Positions 6,873 through 26,572 of a stretch of 64,000 nt of DNA are shown one piece after another. The position numbers and the translations under genes are program-made. The notes under the pieces were generated by a model that was given only the letters and a program-made list of their open reading frames with translations, did no database searches and was not told the origin of the DNA. Source of the DNA: Shewanella benthica (GTDB taxonomy: Bacteria > Pseudomonadota > Gammaproteobacteria > Enterobacterales > Shewanellaceae); assembly GCA_023284085.1 (NCBI GenBank), contig JAKVHY010000001.1, positions 186,001-250,000 on the forward strand, read 5' to 3'. The stretch's first letter is position 1; each line of letters starts with the position of its first letter.

Positions 6873-6873
6873 T

Positions 6874-7542
6874 ATGAACAAATTTTTTGATAATTTTTAT
6901 AATTTTGGTGGTTTTGGCCCCGCGATTCAAGCTACACAGCCGACTGCCGAAACTTTAAATTTTTTCGACAGAAAACTACCTAAACGTTTATTAGAGTATT
7001 GGCAGGAATATGGATTCTGTGGATGGGGTGAAGGTATCTTCTGGACTGTTAATCCAAATGATTATACTGAGATTCTAGAGGAGTGGTTATCAGGTACTCC
7101 TTTTGAGAACAAAGACAATTATTATGTGATTGCCCGAGGTGCATTTGGTCGTTTACTTATTTGGGGGGAAACCACGGGGCAAGGTCTCGATATTAACCCA
7201 TGTTATGGCATGATATTTCCAACAGAATCAGAAACTGAACAATTAAATAAAAGAGGGCCGGAACGTAGTATTGATCTCTTTTTTGCAACAATGTCTAAAA
7301 ACTCATTAGAAGAAGAAGATCTAGATGAGAAACCTCTCTTCGAACGCGCTATGTCGTTACTTGGTCCTCTAGAAGCCGATGAAATGTATGGTTTTGTTCC
7401 TGCACTTGCTATAGGTGGTGCACCTAAGCTAGAAAACCTTCAGAAAGTGAAAGTCATTGAACATCTAACATTCCTAGCTGATTTAGGCGAGAAGACTGTC
7501 ATGGCCGATATCGTCGCTATGTCGAATGCACTACACAAGTAA
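6874..7542 (+). CDS. Immunity protein of the Tdi type (GAD-like + DUF1851)
   Basis: 222 residues. The N-terminal half fits the GAD-like domain (about 10-110: LPKRLLEYWQEYGFCGWGEG, then FWTVNPNDY). The C-terminal half fits DUF1851 (about 120-215: FERAMSLLGPLEADEMYGFV, then ALAIGGAP). This combination is the known cognate immunity architecture for Tde/Ntox15 DNases, so the pairing with the upstream toxin rests on both domain identity and position. The ATG is 1 nt beyond the toxin stop, implying translational coupling. Acidic, cytoplasmic, no signal peptide. Confidence 0.85.
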   Translation: MNKFFDNFYNFGGFGPAIQATQPTAETLNFFDRKLPKRLLEYWQEYGFCGWGEGIFWTVNPNDYTEILEEWLSGTPFENKDNYYVIARGAFGRLLIWGETTGQGLDINPCYGMIFPTESETEQLNKRGPERSIDLFFATMSKNSLEEEDLDEKPLFERAMSLLGPLEADEMYGFVPALAIGGAPKLENLQKVKVIEHLTFLADLGEKTVMADIVAMSNALHK

Positions 7543-10629: not shown

Positions 10630-12743
10630 GATTAAGTCAACTTGATTTAAAAGAAGAATATCGTACTGGTGAAGCAAACCTTTTAGCCGACTTCTACCTT
10701 CCATGCTTGAATCAAAGTGAAACTTACCAGCGTTCTGTTGGCTATTTTAGTTCAACAATATTTTTGCTTATCGGTCCTGCAATTTTAAATTTCGCTAAAA
10801 GAGGTGGAAAAATACAGCTTGTCTGTTCACCTTCATTGTCTGCCGCTGATATTGATGCATTGGAGCAAGGTTATGATTGTGATATTCATAAAATTAATCA
10901 AGAAATACTCCATACTGTTGATACATTATTAAATGAAAGAAAATTCATTAAAAATACCGAAGCTCTGGCTACCCTAATCAAACTAAAAGTCATGGAAGTG
11001 AAAATTGCTTTCAGGAAGAATTCTGCTGGTATCTACCATGAAAAATTAGGCATATTAACAGGCGGCAGCTCATCCGTTTCTTTTAAAGGTTCTGTTAATG
11101 AAACATGGAGTGGTTGGCATGAACGGGGCAACTACGAATCACTTGATGTTTTTTGTAGTTGGAAGGATGGAAGAGACGAACGTCAGGTAAAACGACACAA
11201 GCAGTACTTTCAAAAGCTTTGGTCGAATAAAATTGAAGAGTTAGAAATTATTGATTTCCCATCCGTAGCGAGAACTAAATTAGAAGAGAGAGCTTTATAT
11301 TCAATAGATGAAATTAGCCCTGAAGCGCTCACTGACTATTTCTCTGTCGGAAATGAACAAAAAATGAAAAAACCTTCAAATTCACTCAATAAAAGAAGTC
11401 CCTTACCACATCAAAAAGAAGCTTTAGAAGGCTGGAAAAATCAAGGATATAAAGGGATCTTTGAACATGCGACTGGCAGTGGTAAAACCTATACCGCTCT
11501 AACAGCATTAAAAGAGCACTTAACCGATGATGGTGTTGCTATCGTTCTTGTTCCAGATCGCTTATTGCATAAGCAGTGGGCTGAAGAAATAAAGGTGGAA
11601 ATACCAGAGGTTACGATACTTAAAGCTGGTGATGGTCATAATCGGTGGCGTAAGAATCGTAGACTTCAGCACTTTACAATGAAAGGTGAAAATTTCGGTC
11701 AACGTATTGTATTGGTTACTATGGGGACTGCTTACAAACCTGAATTTTTAGAAGCTATCTCAGGTGGTGATCACATCATGGTAGTTGCTGATGAAGTGCA
11801 TGAGATTGGAAGTAATGAAAACTCTAAAGCATTGACGATAAGAGCAGGAAAAAAATTAGGCTTAAGTGCTACACCCGTTAGGTATAACGATCCCATTGGT
11901 ACTCAGAAAATAATTGACTACTTTGGTCCGATAGTTCAACCATCTTTTACGTTAGTTGATGCAATTAAAAGTGGTCGATTAGTTGAGTATGAATACTTAC
12001 CTCAAGCTATAAGGTTTACTGCTGAAGAATCCGAACAGTGGGAAATAGCAACAAAAGATATTTCCAGAGAATTTGCTCGTTCTAAAAGGGATGATAGTGG
12101 TTCTCCTATCCCTTCTGCAAGATTGCAAAACATGTTAATTCAAAGAGCTAGAATTGCCAAAAAGGCAGAAGCCAAGATCCCTTATGCAATAAAAACAATT
12201 GTTGATAATTATTCCGAAGGCGAAAGTTGGTTAATATATTGCGAGGATCAGTTTCAGCTATCTAAAATTATGCACGCATTAGAAAGTAAAGGTTTTTATC
12301 CATGTGAATATCATACAAACATGGAAGGTGATGCAGCAGCATCCTTAGAGTGGTTTAAAGCATTTGGAGGTATCATGGTCTCAATCAGATGCTTAGACCA
12401 AGGTGTAGATATCCCCAAAATCTCTCACGCAATCATTCTGGCATCTTCTCAAAATCCACGTCAATTTATTCAACGTAGAGGGCGAGTCCTACGCACCTGT
12501 CCAGGAAAATATAAAGCAGTTATATATGATGCAGTGATGGTTCCTGTTTGCTTAGAAAATGAACCCGGGCAACTATCACTTCTAAAAAGTGAGCTGCAAC
12601 GAAGCATACAATTTTCAAAAACAGCAATTAATAAATCAGGCTCTAACAAGCTAATTAACATAGCTATAGAGTTGGGAATAGACCCTGAAGAATATGGTCT
12701 ATTAGACTCAGATGGTATTGAGGAAGAATGTAATGACACATAA
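10626..12743 (+). CDS. Phospholipase D-like / superfamily 2 helicase, predicted phosphorothioation-linked restriction protein
   Basis: 705 residues. The N-terminal about 220 residues resemble a PLD-like nuclease domain, with a HEKLGIL then GSSSVSFKGSVNET pattern around residues 138-160. The helicase core follows: Walker A ATGSGKT (about 282-288), DExH box DEVH (about 387), motif III SATPVRY, and motif VI QFIQRRGRVLR (about 612-622). This architecture matches, from memory, the family annotated as DNA phosphorothioation system restriction enzyme, which clusters with dnd genes. Substrate and cleavage are not shown by sequence. It overlaps the 89-aa ORF by 4 nt and the next small gene by 11 nt, so the operon is tightly coupled. 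Markedly more AT-rich than the flanking chromosome. Confidence 0.8.
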   Translation: MRLSQLDLKEEYRTGEANLLADFYLPCLNQSETYQRSVGYFSSTIFLLIGPAILNFAKRGGKIQLVCSPSLSAADIDALEQGYDCDIHKINQEILHTVDTLLNERKFIKNTEALATLIKLKVMEVKIAFRKNSAGIYHEKLGILTGGSSSVSFKGSVNETWSGWHERGNYESLDVFCSWKDGRDERQVKRHKQYFQKLWSNKIEELEIIDFPSVARTKLEERALYSIDEISPEALTDYFSVGNEQKMKKPSNSLNKRSPLPHQKEALEGWKNQGYKGIFEHATGSGKTYTALTALKEHLTDDGVAIVLVPDRLLHKQWAEEIKVEIPEVTILKAGDGHNRWRKNRRLQHFTMKGENFGQRIVLVTMGTAYKPEFLEAISGGDHIMVVADEVHEIGSNENSKALTIRAGKKLGLSATPVRYNDPIGTQKIIDYFGPIVQPSFTLVDAIKSGRLVEYEYLPQAIRFTAEESEQWEIATKDISREFARSKRDDSGSPIPSARLQNMLIQRARIAKKAEAKIPYAIKTIVDNYSEGESWLIYCEDQFQLSKIMHALESKGFYPCEYHTNMEGDAAASLEWFKAFGGIMVSIRCLDQGVDIPKISHAIILASSQNPRQFIQRRGRVLRTCPGKYKAVIYDAVMVPVCLENEPGQLSLLKSELQRSIQFSKTAINKSGSNKLINIAIELGIDPEEYGLLDSDGIEEECNDT

Positions 12744-12933
12744 AAGTGACCCGTTAACAGTATTGTTGAGACTAAACACCGAACTTGGTAATAAAATAGA
12801 TGAAAGCCTTATTAAAGAGTGTTATCAAGTTCAAAAAGACCATCAATATGATAAAGATAGAAATACTGTAATGAAGATACAAGCGATTGTAGAAGAGAAA
12901 GTAGTAGAACTGCAAGGAAATAAATTGGTATGA
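12733..12933 (+). CDS. Small protein of the DNA-modification-associated type (66 aa)
   Basis: I choose ATG 12733 (MTHKSDPLTVLLRLNTELG) because GAGGAAG sits about 6 bp upstream, inside the end of the helicase gene; an earlier ATG at 12712 lacks this. The protein is short, helical and charged (ESLIKECYQVQKDHQYDKDR). It resembles, from memory, small proteins annotated as DNA modification system-associated. Its stop overlaps the SMC gene start as ATGA. It may be an adaptor between helicase and ATPase (inference from position only). Confidence 0.65.
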   Translation: MTHKSDPLTVLLRLNTELGNKIDESLIKECYQVQKDHQYDKDRNTVMKIQAIVEEKVVELQGNKLV

Positions 12934-14912
12934 AATTGCAAGAGTTAATTATCTACAACTTTATGCCGTATAAAGGCGAACAAAAAATAAACTTCCCTCA
13001 ACACGAAACCCAAAATGTGATGTTACTATTTGGTGACAATATGCGAGGAAAAACTAGCTTTCTAAATTCTATTCGTTGGGGGTTTTATGGACTAGCATTA
13101 GGTCGCCATTTAAGGAAAATACCTCGAACAAACTTAATTAACAGTATCGCAGCTTCTGAAGATAATTGGTCAATGTCAATTATGCTTAAATTTACCCATG
13201 AAAATCGACATTATGAGCTACGTAGACAAATTGAAAAGAAAAGTCACGTTTCAGTACCAAAAAATGATGGTGATTTTGATGAAACTATTGGCCTTAAAAT
13301 TGACAACGAGGTAATTACAGGAGATCTAATCGTCAATGAAATAAACCAAGTCACACCAGAAGAAATTTCACGCTTCTTCCTATTTGATGGTGAATTACTG
13401 CAAGAGTATGAAAATTTACTTGTTGAACAAAGCGAGCAAGGTGAAAAAATAAAAAAGCATATTGAGCAAGCATTAGGAGTCCCAGCGTTAGTAAACGGAA
13501 GAGATGAATTCACATCGCTACTCAAAGATGCTCGAAGAACTCAAACTAGAGATGCAAAAAATTCTTCAGATGCAAAAATGTACGCTGAGCAGCAAAGAAT
13601 TAATGAATCAAAACAAACAACGTTTGAAAAAGATATAAAAGATTTAGAAATCCAACAACGTGAAGTTCAACAAGATATTGATAATATAGAAGATTTACTT
13701 AAAAACACTGAAGCAGTGCAAAAGAAAAAACATGAGGTTGATGTATTAAAAGGTAAACGTGAAACAATAGAAATGCAATTGGATTACGATGCTGATCAGC
13801 AACGAAAACTGTTTCAAAATACATGGAAAGATGTCTTGTTCAAAGGTGTGCAGCCACTTGTAATTAACTTGAAGTCAAAGAGAGACTCGTTGTTGAATGC
13901 TACAAAAGCTAAAGCGGTACTCGATTCTAAAATATCTGAATTACATAAAAGTTTAGAAATACCAATTTGCCCTACTTGTACTCAAAACATCCCACAAAAA
14001 GAAATGGATTGTATTTCGAAGAGGATTACTGAATTAAAAGCTGAAGCAGAATTATCACATGTTAATTTTGATGATGTTACAGAAATAAATTCTCAAATAG
14101 ATAACCTATCTAAAATACAGTCAAGTAATGAAGGTAGCAGGGTCTGTGAATTAGTTAGCAAGCAAAGGAAAATGCAAGTTAGCATTATTAGAATAGAAAC
14201 AGAACTTGATGATATTGAAGAAGAAATTCAAGGGTTTGATACTGATCAAATAATGCGTCAGAGAGAGAAGAAAGATAGATTAGGGAATCAATTATTTAAA
14301 CTTGAAAATGATATTAAAGACAGGAATATGTCTTTAAAGAAACTAGGTGAAACTCAAGCTCACATTTCAACATTAATTTCAAAAAGCTCTGGTAGCCAAG
14401 GGCAATCTAGTACAATCCGAGTGAATTTATATCAAGACTTAGAAGCTCTATTCAGAACTGGCATCAATGAATTGAGAGATGCGTTAAGAGAGCAAGTGGC
14501 TGATTATGCCTCTAATGCATTTAGTGAATTAACCACTGAAAAAACATATGCAGGATTAGAGATAAATAAAAACTATGGTTTATCTATTATTGACCAGACC
14601 GGTCAAGTATTGAAAGAACGTAGTGCTGGTGCTGAGCAAATAGTTGCATTATCGTTGATTGATGGTTTAAACAAAACGGCCAGAAAAATGGGTCCAATTA
14701 TAATGGATACACCATTAGGTCGTTTAGATCCTAAACATAGGAGTAATGTGCTTAAATACTTACCGAAGATGGCAGACCAAGTTATTTTACTCGTACATGA
14801 AGGTGAAATCGATCCAAGTAGAGACCTCTCTAATTTTTCAGACCGAATCGGTGCTCGTTACCAAATTGAAAGAATTTCAGCAACTGAATCTCAAATTGTA
14901 AGGAGCAACTAA
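12930..14912 (+). CDS. Second DndD-like SMC/Rad50-type ATPase with Zn-hook
   Basis: 660 residues in the SMC layout. Walker A GDNMRGKT is at residues 35-42, exactly where the island's own DndD has GLNGGGKT. Two long coiled coils flank a CPTC hook (C347/C350) plus a further Cys at 361. The C-terminal ABC signature region is SAGAEQIVALS, followed by the Walker B/D-loop block MDTPLGRLDPKHR. That last block is nearly identical to DTPLGRLDGKHR in DndD (21876-23834), which directly shows paralogy. The hook CxxC is absent from the DndD copy. The gene is coupled to the next by a TAATG overlap, exactly as dndD is to dndE. Predicted DNA-end or PT-site sensing motor (inference). Confidence 0.85.
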   Translation: MKLQELIIYNFMPYKGEQKINFPQHETQNVMLLFGDNMRGKTSFLNSIRWGFYGLALGRHLRKIPRTNLINSIAASEDNWSMSIMLKFTHENRHYELRRQIEKKSHVSVPKNDGDFDETIGLKIDNEVITGDLIVNEINQVTPEEISRFFLFDGELLQEYENLLVEQSEQGEKIKKHIEQALGVPALVNGRDEFTSLLKDARRTQTRDAKNSSDAKMYAEQQRINESKQTTFEKDIKDLEIQQREVQQDIDNIEDLLKNTEAVQKKKHEVDVLKGKRETIEMQLDYDADQQRKLFQNTWKDVLFKGVQPLVINLKSKRDSLLNATKAKAVLDSKISELHKSLEIPICPTCTQNIPQKEMDCISKRITELKAEAELSHVNFDDVTEINSQIDNLSKIQSSNEGSRVCELVSKQRKMQVSIIRIETELDDIEEEIQGFDTDQIMRQREKKDRLGNQLFKLENDIKDRNMSLKKLGETQAHISTLISKSSGSQGQSSTIRVNLYQDLEALFRTGINELRDALREQVADYASNAFSELTTEKTYAGLEINKNYGLSIIDQTGQVLKERSAGAEQIVALSLIDGLNKTARKMGPIIMDTPLGRLDPKHRSNVLKYLPKMADQVILLVHEGEIDPSRDLSNFSDRIGARYQIERISATESQIVRSN

Positions 14913-15304
14913 TGATTGAACCTAAGAGAATTGGCTTAACACCGTTAGTTGCTCAGCAACTTGACGAATTGTTGATTGAGCTAAATCCAGACCCAGACTC
15001 CAAAAATGAAACCGTCAAATTAGTTAAATTTGACATTTACCGATTAGCTGTTGCGTTAGGTATAAAGGAAAATAAATCACCACCTGCACTCAATGATAAG
15101 AGTAACACCGTGTTTAGGGTTAATGAATTGGATCCAGATAAAACATTATTTACTGTTGTTGAATGTTTAGATTATTGCCCTAATGAAACAAGTATTTACG
15201 GTTATATAGAGCAATTGGCTGAACAAGGTATTAAAGAGTTTTATGAGCATTTACAGCAACGAGGTGAGTTACCACTAGCTGATTACTTACTAGATAAGGA
15301 CTAA
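14912..15304 (+). CDS. DndE-like / dnd-associated small protein
   Basis: 130 residues. By eye it lines up with DndE (21499-21876) along its length: IGLTPLVAQQLDELL against IKLSEKQKQQLIRLK; DIYRLAVALGIKENKSPP against NVLCRWALCMSLAEDTVPP; and IYGYIEQLAEQGIKEFYEHL against FTEFFKLHLNRGISYL. It also resembles, from memory, the family called dnd system-associated protein 4. The identity is low, so this is a proposal. Position after an SMC ATPase with the same TAATG junction as dndD-dndE supports it. DndE binds nicked or PT DNA in the known system; a sensor role here is inference. Confidence 0.6.
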   Translation: MIEPKRIGLTPLVAQQLDELLIELNPDPDSKNETVKLVKFDIYRLAVALGIKENKSPPALNDKSNTVFRVNELDPDKTLFTVVECLDYCPNETSIYGYIEQLAEQGIKEFYEHLQQRGELPLADYLLDKD

Positions 15305-15309
15305 ACTTT

Positions 15310-18120
15310 ATGTCTGCTTTGAAAATGTTTTTTTGCATAGTTAGTGAAACAAAAGCTGATGAGGTTACAGTACATAGAGAGCTAAATTCAATTTACACTT
15401 TGTGGAACTCTGAAAGTTATGATGACAAGGTAGGAATAATTCATATTGGTTTTATCCGACCTAAAGTCCCTAGTTATGAAGAAATACAGCATTTTCATGG
15501 AGGAATACTCGTATCCGCAAGTGTAAAATGGTCATTGCCAGCAGAATATAAAACGAGTAATAAAACTGTATATGTAAGTGAAAAGTACCCTCTTTTTCAA
15601 CTTTTAAGTGGATTTGGTTATTGCATTGAAATAACCGATGACGAAGAGTATTTAAGCGAATCACCAAGTAATGAAAACCCTCTAACTTCTGATAGTAACC
15701 ATACTATTGCATCAGCAGCACTAGATGTACTCGAATCGGTTGCTAAGCCAATGTCTAAAGAAGAAATTTACGGCCATATTATAGAGCGAAACCTTTTCCA
15801 GTTTGGTGCTAAACAACCAATTAATGTTTTAAATGTGGAACTAAACAGACACTGTGAAGGAACAGAGTATAGCCAGGTGTCATCAAATAATTTTTTTGGT
15901 AAAATCAGTGCGGGCCTATTTTATGCACTAAGTTCTTCATCAACAGAGCTTAATGGTTGGTTAACAGATTTAATAGGATCCCATCCTAATTTAGCCGAGT
16001 CATGTTTGAATTTTGGTATATTTGATGAGAAGTCATACTTTAAAAATAAGAAATTCCTGCCTGATACTCAAATACGAGAATTAGAGGTTATCCGTTTCCG
16101 AAAACTAAAAACTACAATAAATATTGAAGACCCATCTGAATTAATATCTATATTACCCGTCAGTATCTTAGATGCTCATATTACTCAATTGGGCTTAACT
16201 GTGAGAACCTGTAATGTTTTTAGTGTGCAAAATATATTTACACTAAAAGATACAATAGGTTACTCATTGCGAGATATGATGAAGTGGCCTAATTTTGGGA
16301 AGAAATCGGCTAAAGATTTATGTGAATTTTTAAATGCTAATGTTGAAAAACTATCATTTTTGTTTCCTATAGATTTTGATAGTAGAAATGTAGACGGTAT
16401 TAATGTTGTTGAAGAAAATATAGAAACAGAACCTACAAAGAACTCTAGATTTGAATATGCTAAAAAAACATCTTTAAAGCTGCATTTTGAAAATTCATTA
16501 TCAATGTTAAAAGATAATGAAAGAATGATATTAGAAAATCGAACTGGCTATCAAGGTCCGGTAAAAACGTTAGAAGAAATTGGTTCCGTTATTGGAGTTA
16601 CTCGTGAGAGAATTCGTCAAATTCAAAAGAAAAATGTTTCAAATATTATTAATACAGAATTTTGGGATGATTGTATCGCCATAAAAATTGGCGAGTTGTT
16701 ACTCAATCGTGAACAACCACTATATTTGGAAATGCTAGAGTTAGAGGATGACTGGTTCTCTGGATTTATAGGCAATTACCAACATTTATCAGCAATTATT
16801 GAATTATTTTCAGAAAACCAGATCCGTTTAATTAAAATTGATGGTGCTATGGTTATTTCTCGCATACATCAAGATACTTGGGATGGTATGGTCTCCTTTT
16901 ATAGGAAATCATTAAAAATAAAGGCTAGTGAACAAAACTGGACTAAGCAAGATATAGATATTACATTCAAAGTGTCATTAGAAAAAGAGGGGGCAAGTGA
17001 ATTACTCCCTTTACTATGGAATACGTTTACAGATAAATTGATTTTTGATGATGCTAAATCTAAAAGTGAAACTCTAATTTCATATGGGAACACGTTATAT
17101 TCGTCAACGCTTGCAGTATTACATCAAGCTGAGTCTCCTCTTCATTTTAGTATTATTGCTGAACGAGTTTATAATCAGTTTGGTAAAACTGTTACAGCTC
17201 CTCAAGTGAATTCGTGTCTGCATAAAGTAGGAGCCAAGTTATTTGAAAGAGGGGTTTACGGATTACCGAAGTTCAACCCTATTTCAGATGCTACTTGTCA
17301 ACACTTAAGATTGGTAGTTGAAAAGCTAATTTATAGTGAGTCCTTAATGAAGCAATGGCATACTTCTGAATTTTTAAGTTGGCTACAAGGAAAATTTCCT
17401 GCTTTACCTAAACAGCTTAACCAATACCTTTTAAATATGATTTTGGAGCACTCAGAAATATTAACGTATTTAAATAAGAATGTATGGGTTAGATCTGATT
17501 CTAAACAGACCTCTGAAGATAGAGTTGATATGGCTGATGCTTTTACAAAAATTCTTGAAGACTCTGGCACACCTTTAAAAGGTGTTGATTTGAAAGAAAG
17601 GCTAAAAAAAATTAGAGGTGTTAATGAGGTTCTTCAACTACAGCCAACTGAAAGAATGATTCTTATTGGCCCAGATACTTGGGGTCTAATAGACCGAGAC
17701 ATTGGCGGAACAGAGGAAGGTAACCGACTTAAGCTTGATGCTATTTTCAAGCACCTTTTATGCTCACAAAAGGGAATTCATGTTTCTGAGGTAACTAATT
17801 GCTTAATAAGTTACGGGATAGACTCGAGTACAACATCAAGTTATGCATTGCTAAGTTTAGCTCATAGAGATGAGCGTTTTTTCTTAGGTAGAGCGATGTT
17901 TTTAGGATTATCGGAGTGGGCAGAGGATGTACGCCGACTTAATTATTCGCAAGCGGTTAGGAGAATATTAAAGGAGATGGATAGCCCTATGAGTATTGCC
18001 CATATAAATCAGCAAGTTGAGATTTTGACTGGTCTAGACGTAGATGGTACCGTCACTAACCTTTTAATTAATCAAGGGGCAAAGTACAACTCAATAATAA
18101 AGCGTTGGGAAAGAGGGTAG
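15310..18120 (+). CDS. 936-aa HARE-HTH / RNAP alpha-CTD-like / sigma-70 region 4-like multidomain protein
   Basis: An N-terminal 110-residue domain is unrecognised. A HARE-HTH domain lies at about 128-200 (SAALDVLESVAKPMSKEEIY, then FQFGAKQPINVL). An alpha-CTD-like helix-hairpin-helix unit is at about 290-345 (LGLTVRTCNVFSVQNIFTL ending NFGKKSAKDLCEFL). A sigma region 4-like HTH is at about 418-440 (TLEEIGSVIGVTRERIRQIQ). The C-terminal 400 residues hold further winged-helix units, one again HARE-like (about 595-645). HARE domains have been proposed to read DNA modification, and fusions with alpha-CTD and sigma4 folds are described for that family. No catalytic motif is visible. Starts 5 nt after the DndE-like gene. 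Likely a PT-reading DNA-binding or transcription-interfering component (inference). Confidence 0.75.
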   Translation: MSALKMFFCIVSETKADEVTVHRELNSIYTLWNSESYDDKVGIIHIGFIRPKVPSYEEIQHFHGGILVSASVKWSLPAEYKTSNKTVYVSEKYPLFQLLSGFGYCIEITDDEEYLSESPSNENPLTSDSNHTIASAALDVLESVAKPMSKEEIYGHIIERNLFQFGAKQPINVLNVELNRHCEGTEYSQVSSNNFFGKISAGLFYALSSSSTELNGWLTDLIGSHPNLAESCLNFGIFDEKSYFKNKKFLPDTQIRELEVIRFRKLKTTINIEDPSELISILPVSILDAHITQLGLTVRTCNVFSVQNIFTLKDTIGYSLRDMMKWPNFGKKSAKDLCEFLNANVEKLSFLFPIDFDSRNVDGINVVEENIETEPTKNSRFEYAKKTSLKLHFENSLSMLKDNERMILENRTGYQGPVKTLEEIGSVIGVTRERIRQIQKKNVSNIINTEFWDDCIAIKIGELLLNREQPLYLEMLELEDDWFSGFIGNYQHLSAIIELFSENQIRLIKIDGAMVISRIHQDTWDGMVSFYRKSLKIKASEQNWTKQDIDITFKVSLEKEGASELLPLLWNTFTDKLIFDDAKSKSETLISYGNTLYSSTLAVLHQAESPLHFSIIAERVYNQFGKTVTAPQVNSCLHKVGAKLFERGVYGLPKFNPISDATCQHLRLVVEKLIYSESLMKQWHTSEFLSWLQGKFPALPKQLNQYLLNMILEHSEILTYLNKNVWVRSDSKQTSEDRVDMADAFTKILEDSGTPLKGVDLKERLKKIRGVNEVLQLQPTERMILIGPDTWGLIDRDIGGTEEGNRLKLDAIFKHLLCSQKGIHVSEVTNCLISYGIDSSTTSSYALLSLAHRDERFFLGRAMFLGLSEWAEDVRRLNYSQAVRRILKEMDSPMSIAHINQQVEILTGLDVDGTVTNLLINQGAKYNSIIKRWERG

Positions 18121-18444: not shown

Positions 18445-18516
18445 GTTATTTGCACAAGGATGCGATACAATATTTATGAAAAACATAAATGTAAAATTTC
18501 AAATAAAGAGGTACTT

Positions 18517-20481
18517 ATGAGCGATGAAATAGAAATAGAAGATCTTGTTGAAGAAGAAAAACCAAACTTTGGATCACCAATTATAGGTAACTTTGGCTCA
18601 TTTCATACAAGGGATAGTTTTGAAGTTAATTATTTACTTACAAGCATGAACTTCAAACAGTTAGATGATATTGAAGTGGCATCAGATGCTTTTAAGTTTG
18701 AACAAGTAAACTTTGATGAAATGATCCAAAGAGAAATTGATGAGTCAAGAGTCAACGATGAAATAGTTACAGACTATTTAGAAAGTACATTAAAACAAGC
18801 TCTTTTTTTTCCACCATTAATTGTATCTATAGTTGCATTTGATGATGATAACGTACCTCTTCATAAATATGAGAATTCAGTTGAACATATTGAACGTAGT
18901 GGGAAAATCCCTATGTTCACTAAAAGGTGGGATCGGCACTTTGAAATTGAGTTTCCAATAATAAAAAATGGTTTTGATTATTATAATTCATCTGAAAATG
19001 GTGAACTTAAAATATACCCCCATGCAGCCAAGCTAAAACTTGATAAGTCTATTGTGAAGCTTGTTATAATTGATGGGCAGCACAGATATAAAGCTATTCA
19101 AGAATATTTGCGCAGACATCCTGATGAGAACAAATTCTTGAACATTCCAGTGTGTATATGTTTCTCACCTCAGGCAATGGCAAAAAATGGATCTGAAGAT
19201 ATCCTGGATACGTTACGGAATATGTTTGTAACGATCAATAATACTGGTAAAAGAGTTAGTGGGAATTATTTAGATTTGTTGAATGACAATAGCTTAGCAT
19301 CACAAACTGTGCGTTTGTTGGCCAATAAATGGAAAAAAGAGAATGATGATCCACTACAAAGTAAATTACAGTTTCTGGAATGGAATCAAAGAAGTGATTC
19401 GAAAGCGCGAAGAGTAAATCGCACGCATTCAATCACTACAGTTTCGATGTTGTGTGAATCACTAAGAAAGTCTGTTTTCCTTGATAGTAAAGATGTAGAT
19501 TTTACATTTAATCTACTTGGTCTATCTGAATACAAAAATGAATTAAGTACCGATCAGTTAACTGTCTATGATATTTCTGAAAATGTTTTTTCACATCAAC
19601 AAAAAGTACTACTTTATGAAATAATTGAAAATAGACTGATTGAACCAATCGAAATGTTATTAACATTACCTAGCGTTTATAAGTCAAAAATTGATAGCTA
19701 TAAAATAGCAATCGATGAATGCAATCAGAAATCCCTCAAAGGTGAAAAGGGATATCCAACATTTATTAAAATTATGCAAAACTTTAGTGATGTAGATGTG
19801 AAAAGGCATACAGAAGCCACTAAGGAAGCTAGCGATGAATTTTATAATTTAATCAAAACAAATGAACATCAAGATAATTATACTCGCCTCGTATTTAATC
19901 AAGCCTATTTCCGTTCGTGGGCTTGTATAGCTAGTATTTCTTCTTCTATTTGTAACGATATTACAAACTTTACTCGTGTATTTGTAAATGCTCTTGAAGT
20001 TGTAGCATTTAATGAAAGAAGGAAAACGTTCTCAAAATCTAGGGTTTACAATCAGAATCTACTGTATAAAGGCAGCAAGCCAAATGTTACTTTATTTGGT
20101 AAAGATTGTTGGTTTGACTTAGTAATGATGTGCTTATTAGGCGAGCAAGCACAACAAATATTTAAAGGATATTTTAATACATTAGCGAACTCAGATATTA
20201 TAATTGAAAAATTCAATTCTGAATTATATAAAGCAAACCAACGATTTATGGAGAGATTATCTGATGAAATACTAAAAGACAATCGTAAAAACTGGCATTT
20301 AAAAGAGTATCCATTATCATTTCGTAATCAATTAAGTACGCTAAAAGAAGCTGGCGATGAAGAAAGCATAAAAACGCTAGAAATATTACTTAAAGAGAAA
20401 ACATTTGAAATTTATAAAGAACGTAAAGAATTGTTATCTAATGTTATTGATGTTGATAATTCACAGTTAGGTTTATTCTAA
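18517..20481 (+). CDS. DGQHR-domain protein (DndB-related)
   Basis: ATG 18517 is preferred to 18460 because AGAGG precedes it by 7 bp (protein begins MSDEIEIEDL, 654 residues). The signature IIDGQHRYKAIQEYL lies at about residues 184-198, the motif that names the DGQHR superfamily to which DndB belongs. The C-terminal 300 residues are helical and unrecognised. From memory, PT-associated DGQHR proteins distinct from DndB are a known annotation class of unknown function. The stop overlaps the next start by one base (TAATG), so it forms a two-gene unit with the HEPN-like gene. Strongly AT-rich. Confidence 0.75.
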   Translation: MSDEIEIEDLVEEEKPNFGSPIIGNFGSFHTRDSFEVNYLLTSMNFKQLDDIEVASDAFKFEQVNFDEMIQREIDESRVNDEIVTDYLESTLKQALFFPPLIVSIVAFDDDNVPLHKYENSVEHIERSGKIPMFTKRWDRHFEIEFPIIKNGFDYYNSSENGELKIYPHAAKLKLDKSIVKLVIIDGQHRYKAIQEYLRRHPDENKFLNIPVCICFSPQAMAKNGSEDILDTLRNMFVTINNTGKRVSGNYLDLLNDNSLASQTVRLLANKWKKENDDPLQSKLQFLEWNQRSDSKARRVNRTHSITTVSMLCESLRKSVFLDSKDVDFTFNLLGLSEYKNELSTDQLTVYDISENVFSHQQKVLLYEIIENRLIEPIEMLLTLPSVYKSKIDSYKIAIDECNQKSLKGEKGYPTFIKIMQNFSDVDVKRHTEATKEASDEFYNLIKTNEHQDNYTRLVFNQAYFRSWACIASISSSICNDITNFTRVFVNALEVVAFNERRKTFSKSRVYNQNLLYKGSKPNVTLFGKDCWFDLVMMCLLGEQAQQIFKGYFNTLANSDIIIEKFNSELYKANQRFMERLSDEILKDNRKNWHLKEYPLSFRNQLSTLKEAGDEESIKTLEILLKEKTFEIYKERKELLSNVIDVDNSQLGLF

Positions 20482-21536
20482 TGACCTTATGGAGTGATGA
20501 TGATTATGAAAATTACAATTATATTTTAGTACCTCATCATTTAAAGTCAGAATTTATTGAGGCAGTAACGTGTGGTATGTTCGAAGAGCCTCTTCAGGAG
20601 GTTTGGTTACTTTCCTCTGCTGCTACGGAGCCTAATGATGTTGAGCTGATTTCCAGACTCTTATGTAAAGTTTTTGGTTATTCGAGTAATGATAACAAAA
20701 TTGATTTTGTAGAAATAATTAATAATCACGTCAAGGAAGGCTACTTCAACTTAATACCTGAGGCTTTGAGGTCAATAAAAAAGCAATCAAGTATAGAAAG
20801 TAAAATCCTTGATTCACTCTTCGAATTATTTTACGTAAATAATTTTATAAAAAATTCGATTGTAGTGGATGGACCTATTGGTTCTACAAATGATTGGTTA
20901 ACTGATGATTTGTTCTTTTCGCAAACTATTGTGAAGGAAATTGATCTGTCATCTTACCAATACTGCCATATAACTGCTGAAATAATTAAAAACAGTAAAG
21001 AGTTAAAGGAATGTATTGCAACTTATAATGAGTTAAATCCTTATAAAAAATTATCTTTTTTGGCATCATACTTTTTATATTGTTGTATCTTTCATATGAA
21101 TAAAAATGATTATTCGCATGCAATAATATTATTGCACAGGGCTGTTGAAACTGTTTTTATTTCCTGGCTAGTGCAGGATCAAGAATTGCATTTAAGTGTT
21201 TTGACTGGTGGAAAATCTAAAGATAATTTTGTATACTTATTGGGTTATATGGAGCGAGTATTAAAAAAACGTTCTTTAACTGATGGTGAAAAGGGTGCAG
21301 TAAAAAATTTAAATACTTTACGCAATCAGTCTAAATTTGCGCATGGGTATAAAATAATTTCGAAAGAGGCTTTTGAAGATATATTCTCAATGCTAAAGCC
21401 ATTGATTTTAAGTGATATTTTATGCAAAGAAAGTTTTGTAAAGTGGGATGCTATCACTCAAACACCCACTGAAATTTATGATTTATTATATAATTACCTT
21501 ACAAAGAATAATTATATTGTAAGGTATGATTGTTGA
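20481..21536 (+). CDS. Candidate HEPN-like protein partnered with the DGQHR protein
   Basis: 351 residues, unrecognised over the first 200. The C-terminal 120 residues are helical and have features of a HEPN domain: a first helix HAIILLHRAVETVFISWL and, about 80 residues later, LNTLRNQSKFAHGYKI. That gives an R-x6-H motif (R281, H288), matching the catalytic RX4-6H motif of HEPN RNases. If so it could be an abortive-infection ribonuclease controlled by the coupled DGQHR protein (inference). Alternatively it is a non-catalytic helical bundle. Its 3' end overlaps dndE tail-to-tail by 38 nt. Confidence 0.5.
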   Translation: MTLWSDDDYENYNYILVPHHLKSEFIEAVTCGMFEEPLQEVWLLSSAATEPNDVELISRLLCKVFGYSSNDNKIDFVEIINNHVKEGYFNLIPEALRSIKKQSSIESKILDSLFELFYVNNFIKNSIVVDGPIGSTNDWLTDDLFFSQTIVKEIDLSSYQYCHITAEIIKNSKELKECIATYNELNPYKKLSFLASYFLYCCIFHMNKNDYSHAIILLHRAVETVFISWLVQDQELHLSVLTGGKSKDNFVYLLGYMERVLKKRSLTDGEKGAVKNLNTLRNQSKFAHGYKIISKEAFEDIFSMLKPLILSDILCKESFVKWDAITQTPTEIYDLLYNYLTKNNYIVRYDC

Positions 21537-21876
21537 TTAAATATGAAATGCCTCTATTCAAATGTAATTTAAAGAACTCAGTAAAGTGCACACCAGGCAG
21601 GTGTGCACTTTGTTTTTGAAACGCCTGACGCAATACACCTAAATAAATATCAGAATATTCACCCGCAAATACTTTCCAGCTCATTTCAACATTACTGTCT
21701 GACGGAATATCTTCAACTGGTGGCACAGTATCTTCGGCGAGCGACATGCAAAGTGCCCATCGGCACAATACATTCCAATTTTCTATACCGGTTTTCTTCT
21801 TTAAGCGGATCAATTGCTGCTTTTGTTTTTCAGACAGTTTAATTGAATCTATAGTATGGGGAGCGTGATCCGTCAT
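21499..21876 (-). CDS. dndE: DNA phosphorothioation protein DndE
   Basis: 125 residues with the DndE pattern: IKLSEKQKQQLIRLKKKTGI near the N-terminus, NVLCRWALCMSL, a VFAGEYSDIYLGVLRQAF core and FFKLHLNRGISYL at the C-terminus. DndE is part of the DndCDE modification complex and in known systems binds nicked double-stranded DNA. The start overlaps the dndD stop by one base (TAATG), so translation is coupled. Its last 38 nt overlap the convergent HEPN-like gene, and a plus-strand terminator hairpin is embedded in its coding sequence. Confidence 0.92.
   Translation of the reverse strand: MTDHAPHTIDSIKLSEKQKQQLIRLKKKTGIENWNVLCRWALCMSLAEDTVPPVEDIPSDSNVEMSWKVFAGEYSDIYLGVLRQAFQKQSAHLPGVHFTEFFKLHLNRGISYLINNHTLQYNYSL
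21583..21616 (+). terminator. Perfect hairpin and T-tract inside dndE, likely terminator of the convergent operon
   Basis: Arms AAAGTGCACACC (21583-21594) and GGTGTGCACTTT (21600-21611) are perfect 12-bp complements around AGGCA and are followed on the plus strand by TGTTTTTG. It lies 47 bp after the HEPN-like stop and within the dndE reading frame on the other strand. Confidence 0.75.
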
Positions 21877-23834
21877 TAAAAATACCCCTGTGTAAAGGTT
21901 GATGATTGCAGTTGTTCGTCAAAGATAATGTGATATTCGCGACAGATAGAAGGCTTTAATTGGTCATAATAGCTACCGACAATTTCTTCATCAGTTGAAA
22001 GTAAGATGACTTGTTTCCCTGCATAGGGGAAATAATTCTTGATTAACTTGGTACGATGCTTTCCGTCTAGTCGGCCTAACGGCGTATCAATGACTGTAGG
22101 TATTTCTTTGCCTGAAGCCTCAGCGAGTCCCCACAAAACTGCAATAGCTAGTAATTGACGTTCACCAGCAGATAGTCTATTTGTGGGCATCTCGTTGCCA
22201 GCAGAATCCATAAGCGAAATAGAAAAAGTAGTAGGGCAAATTTTAATATTGCTGACTAATTTACTTTTCCGATTTAAATCATAAAAATTGTCTATTATGT
22301 GTTTCTCTAATGATTCAATATTTTCTTGTATCAGTTTTAACGAAAATGACTGCATCGTGGTTTTTAGTTTACCAATGTGTTCCGCCACTTGAATTGAACG
22401 CTTTTGTTCAAAGGTATCTCTACTCTGCTGGGTGAGAAGGTTGGTATAACGAGTATTCAGCACTTCATCTCTAGCTTGGTTTTGTTGCAATGACTGTTGT
22501 TTTTGTTTAATTAAAACCAAGTGATTTTTTAGTTCGACTTCGTAGCTGGCAAGTTCAGTGAGTAAGTGTTGTACTGTTTCATAATCCGGAATAGATTCTA
22601 GCTTTTTCTCGAACAAGGCTTGTTGTTCTAATAATTGTTCTTTTAGAGAAAGTAAGCTCGTACGAGCTTTTACATCAACTGCTATTTTCTCATCAAGTCC
22701 GTTAAAAATGGCAATGTTTGTACCCAAGTAGCAGGGGGTGTCAGCTAATGCTTGACGCTCAATAGCCATAGCTGTCATAGCTACTTCAAGCGATTTTAAA
22801 GTACTTTGAGACACGCTTTCTTCGATTAATGTTTGTTTGATTGTGTTCTCATATTCGCTAATTGCGTTTTGAATCACATGAGCTTGAGTGGCTTTCTCTT
22901 CTTTAATTACTTGCTGTTTAGTACTACTTATTAGCTGACTAATTAATCCAAGTGGCCCAGCTCCAGCATCGAGCTTTACTCGCTCTGTAAGGTTAAATTT
23001 TAGCTTTTCTTCAATTGCCCCTAATTCAAATTTAATATTGTCACGCTCATCAATAAGGTGGGCACCGGCATAGCGTACCTTTTGTCTTGATTTATTGATG
23101 TTTAGGTTACAATCGCTTGCCTGTTTTTCAAGTTCAGCAATGTCTTTTTTAAGTTCTGACACTAAAGTGGTTTGATCGGCAATTTCAACTTCTAACGCAG
23201 CAACTTTATGAATGACTGAAGTATCTAGGTTATCTGCTTTACGTTTACGTTCGACATTACTTAAATCGATTTGTAATTGAGTTAACAGATCGAGTCCTAG
23301 CAGATTTTCGATACCTGTTCTTATTAGTTCTGAACTACGGTCTGGATTGGCTAAATCTTCTATTTTTTCACCATCAAAGAAAAACAGATCAGACAAGCTC
23401 AATGGGATAAACTCATTGACGAATTCATCCCAATATTGACTTAGGTGTGAATCTTCTTGCTGGTTACAATACACTACGACTTTATCTTTTACTTCTTTAA
23501 GGTGTGTGTTCCAAGAACGCAGCACCGTGAACTCATTGGTGGTAGTTTCCGTTGTATGAGTAAATGTAAGCGATAGCTCAACAATATCGTTCGCTTCTGC
23601 GTATCGGTTTTTAGTTGTGGCTAAATAAGCCCCATAAGCTTGATGTCCGCGGTTTGAACATTTAGCATGTTTACCATAAAGCACTAACTGTAAAGCGTCT
23701 AAGAAGGTTGTCTTACCACCACCATTTAGGCCGCCAAGTAGGATGATTGGTTGCTCTTCAGTAACTGATAAATCGATTTGGTGACGACCTTGATAAATGC
23801 CAAAGTTTTCTAAAATTAGTTGTTTAATTATCAT
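21876..23834 (-). CDS. dndD: DNA phosphorothioation ATPase DndD
   Basis: 652 residues, SMC-like. Walker A GLNGGGKT at residues 35-42, then KCSNRGHQAYGAYL typical of DndD, long coiled coils, an ABC signature RLSAGERQLLAIAVLWGL and Walker B region IDTPLGRLDGKHR in the last 110 residues. DndD supplies ATPase/nicking activity during sulfur insertion in characterised systems. The start overlaps dndC by 11 nt. No CxxC zinc hook is present, unlike its paralogue at 12930-14912. Confidence 0.95.
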   Translation of the reverse strand: MIIKQLILENFGIYQGRHQIDLSVTEEQPIILLGGLNGGGKTTFLDALQLVLYGKHAKCSNRGHQAYGAYLATTKNRYAEANDIVELSLTFTHTTETTTNEFTVLRSWNTHLKEVKDKVVVYCNQQEDSHLSQYWDEFVNEFIPLSLSDLFFFDGEKIEDLANPDRSSELIRTGIENLLGLDLLTQLQIDLSNVERKRKADNLDTSVIHKVAALEVEIADQTTLVSELKKDIAELEKQASDCNLNINKSRQKVRYAGAHLIDERDNIKFELGAIEEKLKFNLTERVKLDAGAGPLGLISQLISSTKQQVIKEEKATQAHVIQNAISEYENTIKQTLIEESVSQSTLKSLEVAMTAMAIERQALADTPCYLGTNIAIFNGLDEKIAVDVKARTSLLSLKEQLLEQQALFEKKLESIPDYETVQHLLTELASYEVELKNHLVLIKQKQQSLQQNQARDEVLNTRYTNLLTQQSRDTFEQKRSIQVAEHIGKLKTTMQSFSLKLIQENIESLEKHIIDNFYDLNRKSKLVSNIKICPTTFSISLMDSAGNEMPTNRLSAGERQLLAIAVLWGLAEASGKEIPTVIDTPLGRLDGKHRTKLIKNYFPYAGKQVILLSTDEEIVGSYYDQLKPSICREYHIIFDEQLQSSTFTQGYF

Positions 23835-25491
23835 CTTGTACCTCTTCGAAATCGATTAACAGTGAGCTATAGCCTTGTTCTTTGATCGATTTAGTTACCA
23901 TGATGATTTTTTCTTGGATGCTGTCTTTGTCATCGTCACTTAAGTTAGGTGAATTATTGAGTTGGATTTGTAAACGATGGCGTTCGCGTTCAAGTGCAAA
24001 TTGTTTCGCTTCAAATAAAGAATTAAAAGCACCTTTATCTAGACTATTCGTTAACTCATCCGATAAGTGTGCTCTGCGCAGTTGGTTTTTATGTTTGTTA
24101 GCAATGCTCATCACTGAGCGCATTTGCTGATAAAGCAAACCATCTTCATCACCTTGTTCGATGCAATGTTGTTTAAGCTTATCAAGTATATCTACATTCA
24201 AAATAGGGTGGTGTGCACGTTTTTTTCCAGGATAGTTTTTGTTTAGTACTCTTTTATAAATTTTGGGAACGCTATCTTCAGCTTCATGTTTTTCTTCTAG
24301 CCAAATACGGCGAATTTCTTCTAGATCTTCTATTGATAGTAATTCCAAATTCTTTACTTCTATAGGCCCAAGTTCTTGAACAGCTTGTTGGGCCTCAAGT
24401 ACTTTGCCAAGTAAATGTTCTCTGAAGGACTGGATGTATGGGCCGGGTACTAAATCTGCACCATGCTTTGAAATATGCACCGTTAACGTGCCATTCATGC
24501 GCCTAAAGTCTCTATTGGCTTTATCCCGAGTTAGTTTTGCTATTTTCTTTTCTCGGTTGGCATCATTGACTTCAATTTCATTTCGAAGCGATACAAGTGG
24601 GTACATCCACTCTTTTTCTTCGTCATTCGAAATCATCGCATTCATTGATTTATCTTCAGAAACCATAGTGCAAACATAACAACCAAAACGACTGTCACCA
24701 CAACTTTGAGTTGATTTATCAACTACAAGAGGGCATTCGCCGCCTTCTGTTGCACCTTGGTACATACCCATTAAGTCATGATTTGGGAATTTCCACGGGT
24801 TTTCGACACTATTAAGATAAATCCACACATCATCATTACTCCAGCTTGCTATTGGAGCGTATACCCAAACTCGTTCAAGTGAGCCGTTTTCAGTTAACCC
24901 GAGTGCTTTACGAGTATTAGTTGTAGAATTTTCAAAGCGCTCCATGCTTGCTGCACGGGCGGTACTTTCGGCTTTTCGTGTGCCGAGTACTAAAATGGCT
25001 TCACCATTTTTATCTGCCATGTTTTGGATAAAGGTATTTGACGGTGAGATTTTTAAACGGTCAGTACACCAACGAAACTTTGGGCGCGGGGCAGGGTAAC
25101 CTTTTCCAATCAAGTTAACCCAAAAACGGTCTTTAACCGCAGGTGTTAGACGATGAGGGATTATTGGCAAGCCTTGGTCTTTGGCTTGTTCTGCCATTCT
25201 TTCAAGTGATTTACCTACCCATATTGCAACAATTGGGTTTTCTACTAACGTATCAGTGCTGATGACGTGGACCTTTTTACCGCATTTTCCTTCTTTTTTT
25301 AGTTCTTGTAAGGCATACCAGATCAATTGCAAAATAGCTGTAGAATCTTTACCGCCGCTATAACCTATGACCCAGGGGATAGAGTCGCTTTGATAAAGCA
25401 TTTTTATATGCTCAATGCTTATTTGTATGGTATGTTTTAAGCCGTTGTCACCAAATGCTGAATGGTGCTGTACTGCGTTATCAGTAGCCAT
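23824..25491 (-). CDS. dndC: DNA phosphorothioation sulfurtransferase DndC (PAPS-reductase-like)
   Basis: I use ATG 25491 (MATDNAVQHH), which has AAAGGGG 7 bp upstream, rather than the longer frame from 25518. 555 residues. The PP-loop SGGKDS is at 45-50. A cysteine cluster (GECPLVVD, then SCGDSRFGCYVC) about residues 240-270 would hold the Fe-S cluster. The ATP-pyrophosphatase-like N-terminal domain followed by a long helical tail is usual for DndC. It activates the DNA backbone and transfers the sulfur mobilised by DndA. Overlaps dndB by 11 nt and dndD by 11 nt. Confidence 0.95.
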   Translation of the reverse strand: MATDNAVQHHSAFGDNGLKHTIQISIEHIKMLYQSDSIPWVIGYSGGKDSTAILQLIWYALQELKKEGKCGKKVHVISTDTLVENPIVAIWVGKSLERMAEQAKDQGLPIIPHRLTPAVKDRFWVNLIGKGYPAPRPKFRWCTDRLKISPSNTFIQNMADKNGEAILVLGTRKAESTARAASMERFENSTTNTRKALGLTENGSLERVWVYAPIASWSNDDVWIYLNSVENPWKFPNHDLMGMYQGATEGGECPLVVDKSTQSCGDSRFGCYVCTMVSEDKSMNAMISNDEEKEWMYPLVSLRNEIEVNDANREKKIAKLTRDKANRDFRRMNGTLTVHISKHGADLVPGPYIQSFREHLLGKVLEAQQAVQELGPIEVKNLELLSIEDLEEIRRIWLEEKHEAEDSVPKIYKRVLNKNYPGKKRAHHPILNVDILDKLKQHCIEQGDEDGLLYQQMRSVMSIANKHKNQLRRAHLSDELTNSLDKGAFNSLFEAKQFALERERHRLQIQLNNSPNLSDDDKDSIQEKIIMVTKSIKEQGYSSLLIDFEEVQDDN

Positions 25492-26572
25492 TGCGCGCCC
25501 CTTTAAATGCATTTTCAATATTGTTTTCTTTTTCGTTTAAGGGCATGTTCAATAACTTTTTAATTTGAATATAGGTAAGCTCAGCGAATTTACGATTATT
25601 ATGCATGCTGCCATTTAGTACACATCTACCTTGCCAATCTGGGTTCGTTCTGCTCCAATTAATGTTTTGTAGGCCTGCTAATTTAGCTTTCCAATTCTTC
25701 TCGTTTTTCAATAAGTCAGCGCCCAAAAAACCAAGGGCCTGGAACGTCACTGCATGTGCATTAATGGCCTCATCTCGGAGTTCGCCGCCTGAAGCTTTAT
25801 CGTCACAAATTAATTGCCATGCAGGCATGTTTTTTATAACTTCATGCCAGTACGTTGCGGCTACAGGTATAAGTTTCTGGTAGTTATCTTCGGTAATCGT
25901 ACCTAAGAGAAACTTAGTTGCTTTATTTACGGCGCTGTGGCTGACAAGTTTTTTAGAGCGAGGGCCTAGATTACTTCTCTCCATATGAACTAGCTTACTA
26001 AGTTGATCACTTTCATAAATAATTGATTTCGACAACTTAGCATCTGGTTTATCATCATATGTAATACTTAAAGAGCTATCTGTTTTTACGGGATAAAGGT
26101 TTAAGTCTTTGAATATACGTTGACGTTCTTCTAAAGATTTATTTATAAAGAACACCACTGAAATGCTTTCGTCTGCGAGAGAGGGATCAGCTTTTAAAGC
26201 TTCTAAAATTGCGGCGTGTCGGTGTTGACCATCGGTAATGTAAATGTCTGCATCTTCATCAATAACGAGTGTGCCAATTTTTTGTTCATGCTTTCCATTT
26301 CCAATGGATACAAATTCGCTTTGTCCATCGATACAAGCGGTTAAGGCTGAGAAAACGTAATTGTCGCGATTATCTAAAATATAATTAGTGATCTCAGGTA
26401 TGCGATCTTCGTTAATTATCCGTTGAGCACGTTGCTCGACAGGTAGTTGGCCTTCATCAAAAGTAAATATCTTACTAAGCCTTTTTAGCGGGCACATAAC
26501 GATGTAGTATTCTGTTTTTGCCTGCGTTCCTCGAATTGCGGGGAATGAAGTTCCTGAAATAATTTGATTCAT
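25481..26572 (-). CDS. dndB: DndB, DGQHR-family regulator/accessory of phosphorothioation
   Basis: 363 residues with the DndB hallmarks: an N-terminal FPAIRGTQAKTEYYIVMCPL and ITDGQHRHAAILEAL near residue 112. DndB is not required for sulfur insertion in known systems; it tunes modification density and represses the dnd promoter. It is the first gene of the dndBCDE operon and diverges from dndA across a 123-bp region holding a paired palindrome, which is a natural binding site for this autoregulator (inference). Confidence 0.93.
   Translation of the reverse strand: MNQIISGTSFPAIRGTQAKTEYYIVMCPLKRLSKIFTFDEGQLPVEQRAQRIINEDRIPEITNYILDNRDNYVFSALTACIDGQSEFVSIGNGKHEQKIGTLVIDEDADIYITDGQHRHAAILEALKADPSLADESISVVFFINKSLEERQRIFKDLNLYPVKTDSSLSITYDDKPDAKLSKSIIYESDQLSKLVHMERSNLGPRSKKLVSHSAVNKATKFLLGTITEDNYQKLIPVAATYWHEVIKNMPAWQLICDDKASGGELRDEAINAHAVTFQALGFLGADLLKNEKNWKAKLAGLQNINWSRTNPDWQGRCVLNGSMHNNRKFAELTYIQIKKLLNMPLNEKENNIENAFKGARNGY

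Follow-up and report, generated by a model that had tools for sequence, protein, structure and literature searches.

Two described systems come close to the locus analysed here, a Pbe operon lying beside a set of dnd genes in a 64,000-nt stretch of Shewanella benthica DNA (the window: GCA_023284085.1, contig JAKVHY010000001.1, positions 186,001-250,000, forward strand; all coordinates below use window numbering, position 1 being the first letter of the stretch). The first is PbeABCD of the archaeon H. jeotgali A29 (Xiong 2019, PMC6459918), which the accessible part of that paper describes as four genes coupled to dnd: a nuclease-helicase gene (pbeA), a 66-aa pbeB, a DndD-like pbeC and a small pbeD. 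According to the same text, its activity depends on DNA phosphorothioate (PT), full protection takes all four genes (a low level remains without pbeA), loss of dnd causes no growth defect, and viral DNA is left uncut while its replication is blocked. The second comprises the CxC-clade ABC ATPase-DndE ('clade-2') systems (Rakesh 2024, PMC10853773), in which, as far as the consulted part of that article goes, a Zn-hook ATPase and DndE are combined with an HKD-SF2 (superfamily 2) nuclease, a small protein and PT or methylase partners. The article proposes an ancient duplication from a DndDE ancestor for these systems, reports a likeness of DndE to TraY and identifies PbeD as the cognate of DndE; neither the PbeC-PbeD pair nor the idea of its duplication is new (Rakesh 2024; Xiong 2019).

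We found that an ATPase and a small protein of the window, previously singled out as a second DndD-DndE-like pair, correspond to PbeC and PbeD, encoded in a pbeABCD operon that is complete and adjoins a full dndABCDE set (Table 1). The assignment to Pbe is nearly certain: the fused nuclease-helicase PbeA, PbeB, a hooked PbeC and a PbeD of DndE fold, by which Pbe and CxC ABC ATPase-DndE systems are recognised, are all present. The pair is a real unit, as the preliminary description had it, and its operon comprises five or more genes, of which pbeA, pbeB and a gene following pbeD had been omitted. This fifth gene, for which we use our own label pbeE, is constant in the subgroup studied; together with a difference in its HARE-HTH content between lineages, it looks like the less-known part of the system.

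Loci for comparison were collected by means of PbeC. Single PbeC sequences found no match among genome or viral contigs, and tblastn returned one Aurantiacibacter plasmid record with the same gene order, running on into a 'sigma factor-like' gene. A three-sequence PbeC alignment (A1) yielded 36 loci from genome contigs: 25 with full-length PbeC (L010-L033 and L035), one broken (L034), one cut (L036) and nine Dehalococcoidia-type loci (L037-L045) with N-terminal PbeC matches of about 50 residues, which were left out of the counts. The same alignment found one cut locus (L046) among viral contigs. The 25 full-length loci, the window, L004 and L005 make up a 28-locus set, derived from Alpha-, Beta- and Gammaproteobacteria and Thermodesulfobacteriota. 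Since these loci were selected by PbeC likeness, counts of 28/28 are valid for this Pbe subgroup only. Such systems were rare in the samples searched: PbeC was found in 2/369 genomes of the class (E 1e-40), the PbeC model PDLC02725 matched 1/398 genomes of the phylum (E 1e-50), and the PbeA model matched 5/369 genomes of the class (E 1e-40). Three other places with PbeA matches were L134 (Pbe genes in the order pbeC-D-A beside dnd genes, no pbeE), L133 (the contig ends too early) and L135 (a pbeA-like open reading frame (ORF), no pbeC).

The order pbeA-(B)-C-D-E was retained in all 28 loci, with the fifth gene on the same strand and either separated from pbeD by no more than 10 bases or overlapping it. 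Individual loci bear damage: pbeE is split by an insertion sequence in L004 and cut by the contig end in L031, and pbeA is in two pieces in L020; in L015, L019 and L029 the pbeE ORF call starts upstream, inside pbeD. PbeA carries ResIII/Helicase_C domains (Pfam), an HxK motif at residue 138 and DEVH at 389, and scores 316 bits against TIGR04095 (dnd_restrict_1), under the 600-bit cut-off (NCBIfam). In the HxK stretch, Asp occupies the ninth position in 25 of the 27 readable PbeA proteins, the window (11037-11069) and L010 being the two that differ. Relatives of pbeB occur in the same place in 25/28 loci (phmmer; window included); none was recognised in L005, L029 and L032, where a gap of pbeB size is present. 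PbeB has no NCBIfam match. Its ORF begins at 12712 in the ORF list (73 aa), and counted from the ATG at 12733 it has 66 aa, the length given for archaeal PbeB (PMC6459918, in the part consulted).

The fifth gene encodes a protein of about 800-940 aa across loci, predicted to bind DNA through several domains. Pfam RNA_pol_A_CTD and Sigma70_r4 were matched in 26/26 aligned copies, and the sigma region 4 domain of the window protein superimposes on a SigmaA region 4 chimera with Z 10.0. In the predicted model, an N-terminal alpha-beta domain is followed by the alpha-C-terminal domain (alpha-CTD), sigma region 4 and, from about residue 593, winged helices. Residues 1-99 match adenylyl cyclases (Z 8.1), which we take as a sign of a common alpha-beta fold and not of function; no new fold is claimed, and the list of structural matches covers parts of the protein only. 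The possibility that PbeE is a sigma-70 factor was rejected: region 4 was found, and no sigma region 2 family appeared among the Pfam matches of the 26 aligned copies. When a PbeE profile was run against 398 genomes and viral contigs, the matches listed were almost exclusively region 4 of sigma factors, and the sole full-length match among them was the window's own. MzaA of the MZA defence system resembles PbeE in its sigma-4 domain; residues 378-444 alone match, at 37.8 bits where the cut-off is 800.

No gene of this kind belongs to the four-gene H. jeotgali system as its paper describes it in the part consulted, and the consulted text on clade-2 systems (PMC10853773) lists no alpha-CTD/sigma-4 gene among the constant members. 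It does refer to MTaX1, a gene of methylase-linked systems that could be pbeE or a different one. In our searches of open-licence literature we found no report of the fifth gene or of the HARE switch described below; MTaX1 of Krishnan 2020 may overlap with the former.

The 81-residue HARE-HTH insert occurs in 7 of the 26 aligned PbeE proteins (the window and L010-L015, hereafter HARE-plus) and is absent from 19, and this difference runs parallel to the modification enzymes. The dndE-D-C genes lie inside the locus in the window, L010, L011, L012 and L014. Besides the window, dndC was detected by whole-genome search (E 1e-10) in all five HARE-plus genomes searched, namely these four and L015, a Cycloclasticus with complete dndBCDE on another contig. 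Matches to dndC were found in 2/20 other genomes, L026 and L036; the latter match is weak and without dndD, and the contig is cut, so the state of PbeE cannot be read. A single family of DNA methyltransferases stands beside 20/20 HARE-less loci (L004 and the 19 aligned), either ahead of pbeA or behind pbeE. The broken L034 and the cut L046 also have it; it was not seen at L031, on a short contig in which PbeE breaks off ahead of the insert site. None of the seven HARE-plus loci has this methyltransferase, L012 and L014 offering little or no upstream flank. On the scale of whole genomes it was found in 0/6 HARE-plus and in all four HARE-less genomes searched (of 18). Fisher's test on dndC (6/6 HARE-plus against 0/18 intact HARE-less) gave 7e-6, which does not count as independent evidence, the HARE-plus proteins forming a single clade.

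We consider it rather probable that this five-gene operon works, in outline, through a PbeCD clamp, a mark-reading PbeE and an acting PbeA, with the reader role of PbeE as the weak part of the scheme. PbeC would dimerise via its head domains and Zn-hook and, joined by PbeD with its two ribbon-helix-helix units, would form an ATP-driven clamp that scans DNA, like DndDE in modification. PbeE, through its alpha-CTD, sigma-4 and winged-helix domains, would bind the same DNA and report its modification state, and in this lineage the HARE-HTH insert may read, directly or indirectly, the PT mark made by Dnd. The result would bring the nuclease-helicase PbeA into action on invading DNA, and the small PbeB would play a regulatory part. 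For the sister lineage, whose PbeE has no HARE domain, we suppose that the DNA methyltransferase sets the mark. PT bound by PbeE might either activate the system or spare the marked DNA. An effector licensed by PT, rather than blocked by it, would fit the archaeal data, with or without cutting of DNA by PbeA, because that system needs PT, tolerates dnd loss without a growth defect and leaves viral DNA uncut (PMC6459918, in the part consulted).

We infer that PbeE reads the modification, and the fifth gene is a better candidate for mark reading than the pair. The fuller claim, that a five-gene subtype of Pbe uses PbeE as its modification-reading subunit and HARE-HTH as an exchangeable PT reader, gained when the operon moved from a methyltransferase partner to Dnd or lost in the opposite change, is more doubtful, and we put it forward tentatively. 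Several observations weigh against the scheme outlined above. The HARE-plus proteins form one clade both in the PbeE tree (support 100/100, insert columns removed) and in the PbeC tree (84/100); the HARE and Dnd counts are therefore not independent and amount to a single evolutionary switch, which may have been a gain together with Dnd or a loss in reverse. L013 is HARE-plus, and neither dnd genes nor the methyltransferase were found on its contig, which ends 2.5 kb after pbeE. The Geobacter genome of L026 contains, on another contig, a 309-aa dndC piece, dndD and a 346-aa pbeA piece without pbeC (L136; G846:C134:64000-82000); we read this stretch as a probable Dnd/Pbe remnant, the intact Pbe locus of that genome being linked to the methyltransferase. 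Pfam scores HARE-HTH in 16/26 PbeE proteins, compared with seven that have the insert; the other matches evidently arise via another winged helix, and HARE-like folds thus occur outside the insert too. The sensing role suggested for HARE-HTH domains concerns modified bases, with cytosine as the likelier target, and not PT (PMC11037411, consulted in part). Since the four-gene archaeal Pbe needs PT and its paper, in the part consulted, describes no fifth gene, PT sensing is probably possible without PbeE. Finally, the PbeE model (pLDDT 82.3) has a low pTM (0.44), and for this reason only its domains, and not their arrangement, are trustworthy.

The single clade also makes it quite possible, if short of probable, that HARE follows Dnd merely because one ancestral operon gained both, and that the domain has nothing to do with PT and detects, for example, phage base modifications, to which HARE domains are tied in print (PMC11037411, PMC10853773; both consulted in part). 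This explanation has to contend with the retention of dnd genes in L015 although they are unlinked to the locus, and with the degree of conservation of the insert, which within the clade shows 52.8% mean identity with 21/81 residues invariant and is thus as conserved as the PbeE core (other PbeE segments: 32-62%). It is further opposed by the recurrence of the same module in the Dnd part of the window, where it caps an Mrr nuclease next to dndA: residues 3-83 of this protein (27823-28065) match the PbeE insert with E 8.3e-13, 81 residues on each side. Pfam gave no HARE-HTH for the Mrr ORF at E 0.01, and no HARE-Mrr nuclease was found in five other dnd neighbourhoods searched, that of L012 being only 3.5 kb. 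Fusions of HARE-HTH with restriction endonucleases in Dnd loci have been proposed to be modification discriminators (PMC10853773, in the part consulted), and the window's Mrr protein is one of this kind; PbeE resembles them in having a HARE domain in a PT locus, whereas its domain is inserted in a protein in which no nuclease domain was found.

Alternatively, PbeE might be a transcription regulator of the locus, its HARE domain tuning promoter choice and mark reading being left to PbeC-PbeD or PbeA. This would suit a protein that carries, in every aligned copy and with clear fold matches, the two modules through which RNA polymerase contacts promoters. It suits less well the lack of a region 2 family in Pfam and the constant setting of these modules in a protein of about 800-940 aa, with its further winged helices and its fixed position right behind pbeD on the same strand. 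It is also at odds with a HARE difference that tracks the modification enzyme, and we consider the regulator role rather unlikely.

Returning to the clamp proposed for PbeC and PbeD, we examined the kinship of both proteins with DndD and DndE. The features on which the preliminary description had based the pairing are mostly as reported: both ORFs are in place, both ATPases have a Walker A motif at residues 35-42 (GDNMRGKT and GLNGGGKT) and a DTPLGRLDxKHR block (DTPLGRLD at 593 and 583; KHR read from the translations), and TAATG stands at both junctions. The shared junction is weak evidence, as pbeC-pbeD spacing ranges from -14 to +3 across the 28 loci, with the one-base overlap (-1) in three of them (the window, L010 and L026). 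The Zn-hook is real: CxxC is present in 28/28 PbeC (residue 347 or 348) and in 0/5 DndD.

PbeC is kin of DndD, not of SbcC or RecN. It scores 164.7 bits against DndD TIGR03185, under the cut-off of 245.85 (the window's true dndD: 753 bits), and 46 bits against Rad50 (NCBIfam). A profile of 28 PbeC sequences gives five DndD proteins 113-126 bits, compared with 14.8 for the genome's SbcC and -5.0 for its RecN. Closer kinship with Rad50/SbcC or RecN, one of two findings that would have spoken against the preliminary description, was therefore not seen, and neither was the other, a small protein whose fold is unrelated to DndE (see below). In pairwise comparison, PbeC and the window's DndD match with BLASTP E 0.006 over 72 columns; a sequence search of PDB with PbeC gave nothing at E 0.001. 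The 25 full-length PbeC proteins from other genomes are 36-80% identical to that of the window, and those of other classes and another phylum (L016-L033, L035) 36-42% over the whole length. The tree sets PbeC clearly apart from DndD; SbcC forms a very long branch of unsure placement. A separate observation concerns the PADLOC models: the window dndD (21876-23834) scores best against PDLC02740, labelled PbeC (786 bits, the best DndD model giving 595), and PADLOC's PbeC set may for that reason contain DndD sequences.

The small protein had been said to line up with DndE segment by segment, which fails at the level of sequence (BLASTP E 4.0) and holds at the level of fold. The AlphaFold2 model of PbeD (26 PbeD sequences; pLDDT 87.5, pTM 0.83) consists of a short strand and two helices, occurring twice, and VIA-align placed DndE 7x4e in its top row (Z 11.2, 2.5 Å over 106 residues), followed by DndE 5wtu (Z 9.5) and 4lrv (Z 9.3). 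Next came chain E of the F-plasmid relaxosome, which we take to be TraY (Z 7.5), and then a row at Z 3.2. Foldseek likewise ranked a DndE (4lrv) first, but with E 0.086 (probability 0.97). By hhalign, PbeD and DndE reach a probability of 32% (E 0.0005) over 44 columns, and none of the 28 PbeD proteins matches the DndE family (TIGR03184/PF08870; Pfam, NCBIfam). The kinship of PbeD with DndE is accordingly carried by the predicted fold, sequence proof having failed or being weak. TIGR04062 (dnd_assoc_4), the NCBIfam family for PbeD, was matched by 0/28 at E up to 1, and hhalign gave 1.5% probability against a two-sequence alignment of TIGR04062-type PbeD; ORFs behind pbeC in two other Pbe loci do match it, above (L133) and below (L134) the cut-off. 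HARE-plus PbeD proteins (window about 14984-15013; L010-L015) have up to about ten extra residues between the first two helices, fewer in L015, which are missing in other PbeD save for three in L005; these residues mark the lineage in addition to the HARE insert.

PbeCD thus resembles DndD-DndE in ATPase architecture and in the fold of the small protein, and differs in the hook, in a PbeC below the DndD cut-off and in a PbeD without a sequence match. The resemblance, together with the adjoining full Dnd set, might suggest that PbeC-PbeD is a second modification pair which extends or re-targets Dnd phosphorothioation and takes no part in restriction. We regard this as very improbable: the pair shares its gene row with a nuclease-helicase, deletions of archaeal pbe genes impair or abolish defence (PMC6459918, in the part consulted), and in the HARE-less lineage PbeCD is kept without dndC, since that gene is matched in 1/18 genomes only (L026, partial, E 1e-10). 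As for the duplication of a DndD-DndE-like pair, it stands as an ancient and already published event, the separation of PbeC and DndD in the tree speaking for great age. A recent local copying of the adjoining dndDE, to which adjacency and shared motifs could point, can be set aside as next to impossible given that separation, the poor BLASTP values between the copies and the whole-length identity of PbeC proteins from other classes and another phylum.

Table 1. Pbe, Dnd and accessory features of the window
Feature	Coordinates	Strand	Evidence
pbeA, HKD (phospholipase D-like) nuclease + SF2 helicase, 705 aa	10626..12743	+	PADLOC PbeA PDLC02707 E 2.8e-217
pbeB, small protein, 66 aa from ATG at 12733	12733..12933	+	ORF between pbeA and pbeC
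pbeC, CxC-clade ABC ATPase, 660 aa	12930..14912	+	PADLOC PbeC PDLC02725 E 1.2e-292
PbeC Walker A, residues 35-42	13032..13055	+	motif search
PbeC Zn-hook CPTC, residues 347-350, mid coiled-coil insert	13968..13979	+	motif search
pbeD, predicted DndE-fold protein (two ribbon-helix-helix units), 130 aa	14912..15304	+	AlphaFold2 model, VIA-align
pbeE, multi-domain DNA-binding protein (predicted), 936 aa	15310..18120	+	directly after pbeD in 28/28 loci
PbeE HARE-HTH insert, residues 129-209	15694..15936	+	Pfam HARE-HTH PF05066 34.9 bits, cut-off 25.9, residues 132-182
PbeE alpha-CTD-like domain, residues 284-345	16159..16344	+	Pfam 43.5 bits; Z ~8 to RNA polymerase alpha CTDs
PbeE sigma region 4-like domain, residues 387-460	16468..16689	+	Pfam 34.7 bits, residues 397-441
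DGQHR/DndB-like protein, 673 aa, first slot gene	18460..20481	+	PF14072 42.7 bits; TIGR03187 56.7 bits, just below cut-off 58.85
HEPN-like (Csm6/Csx1-type) protein, 351 aa, second slot gene	20481..21536	+	PADLOC CARF_HEPN E 1e-6
dndE	21499..21876	-	TIGR03184 127 bits
dndD	21876..23834	-	TIGR03185 753 bits
dndC	23824..25518	-	TIGR03183 683 bits
dndB	25481..26572	-	PF14072 E 3.7e-117
dndA-type cysteine desulfurase (class-V aminotransferase fold)	26696..27820	+	Aminotran_5 E 1.6e-66; dndA role inferred from position
Mrr-type restriction nuclease	27817..28596	+	Mrr_cat E 4.1e-27

Another observation concerns a two-gene slot between pbeE and dndE (after pbeE in L029), whose content varies by locus: DGQHR and HEPN in the window (18460-21536), HATPase and Methyltransf_35 in L010 (15206-17495), a DndB-like and an unknown protein in L011 (15261-17155), a weak ParB_N match and an ion channel in L012 (8803-11161) and L014 (7210-9394), and AAA_5 with an unknown protein in L029 (15014-17954). 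Judged from gene content, the slot looks like an exchangeable cassette of accessory effectors. The HEPN-like protein of the window scores 24.8 bits against PF09670, under the cut-off of 27. TIGR03238 and TIGR03237, presumably markers of DndFGH, had no match in six genomes; the control genomes gave none either, and the result does not establish absence. Upstream of pbeA, a 428-aa protein (7914-9200) has weak DUF1570 and Peptidase_MA_2 matches and no PADLOC family, and positions 4671-7542 encode an Ntox15-domain protein followed by a GAD-like/Tdi1-type immunity protein, likely an interbacterial effector-immunity pair.

Our analysis of this locus and its relatives indicates that in one subgroup of Pbe a fifth gene is always present, and that the domains it encodes vary with the chemistry of modification. 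A defined and separable domain of 81 residues makes the question of mark reading testable. If PbeE is indeed the reader and its HARE domain exchangeable, this would explain how Pbe 'sees' PT, and one would expect Pbe to obey a different mark once this domain is added or taken away.

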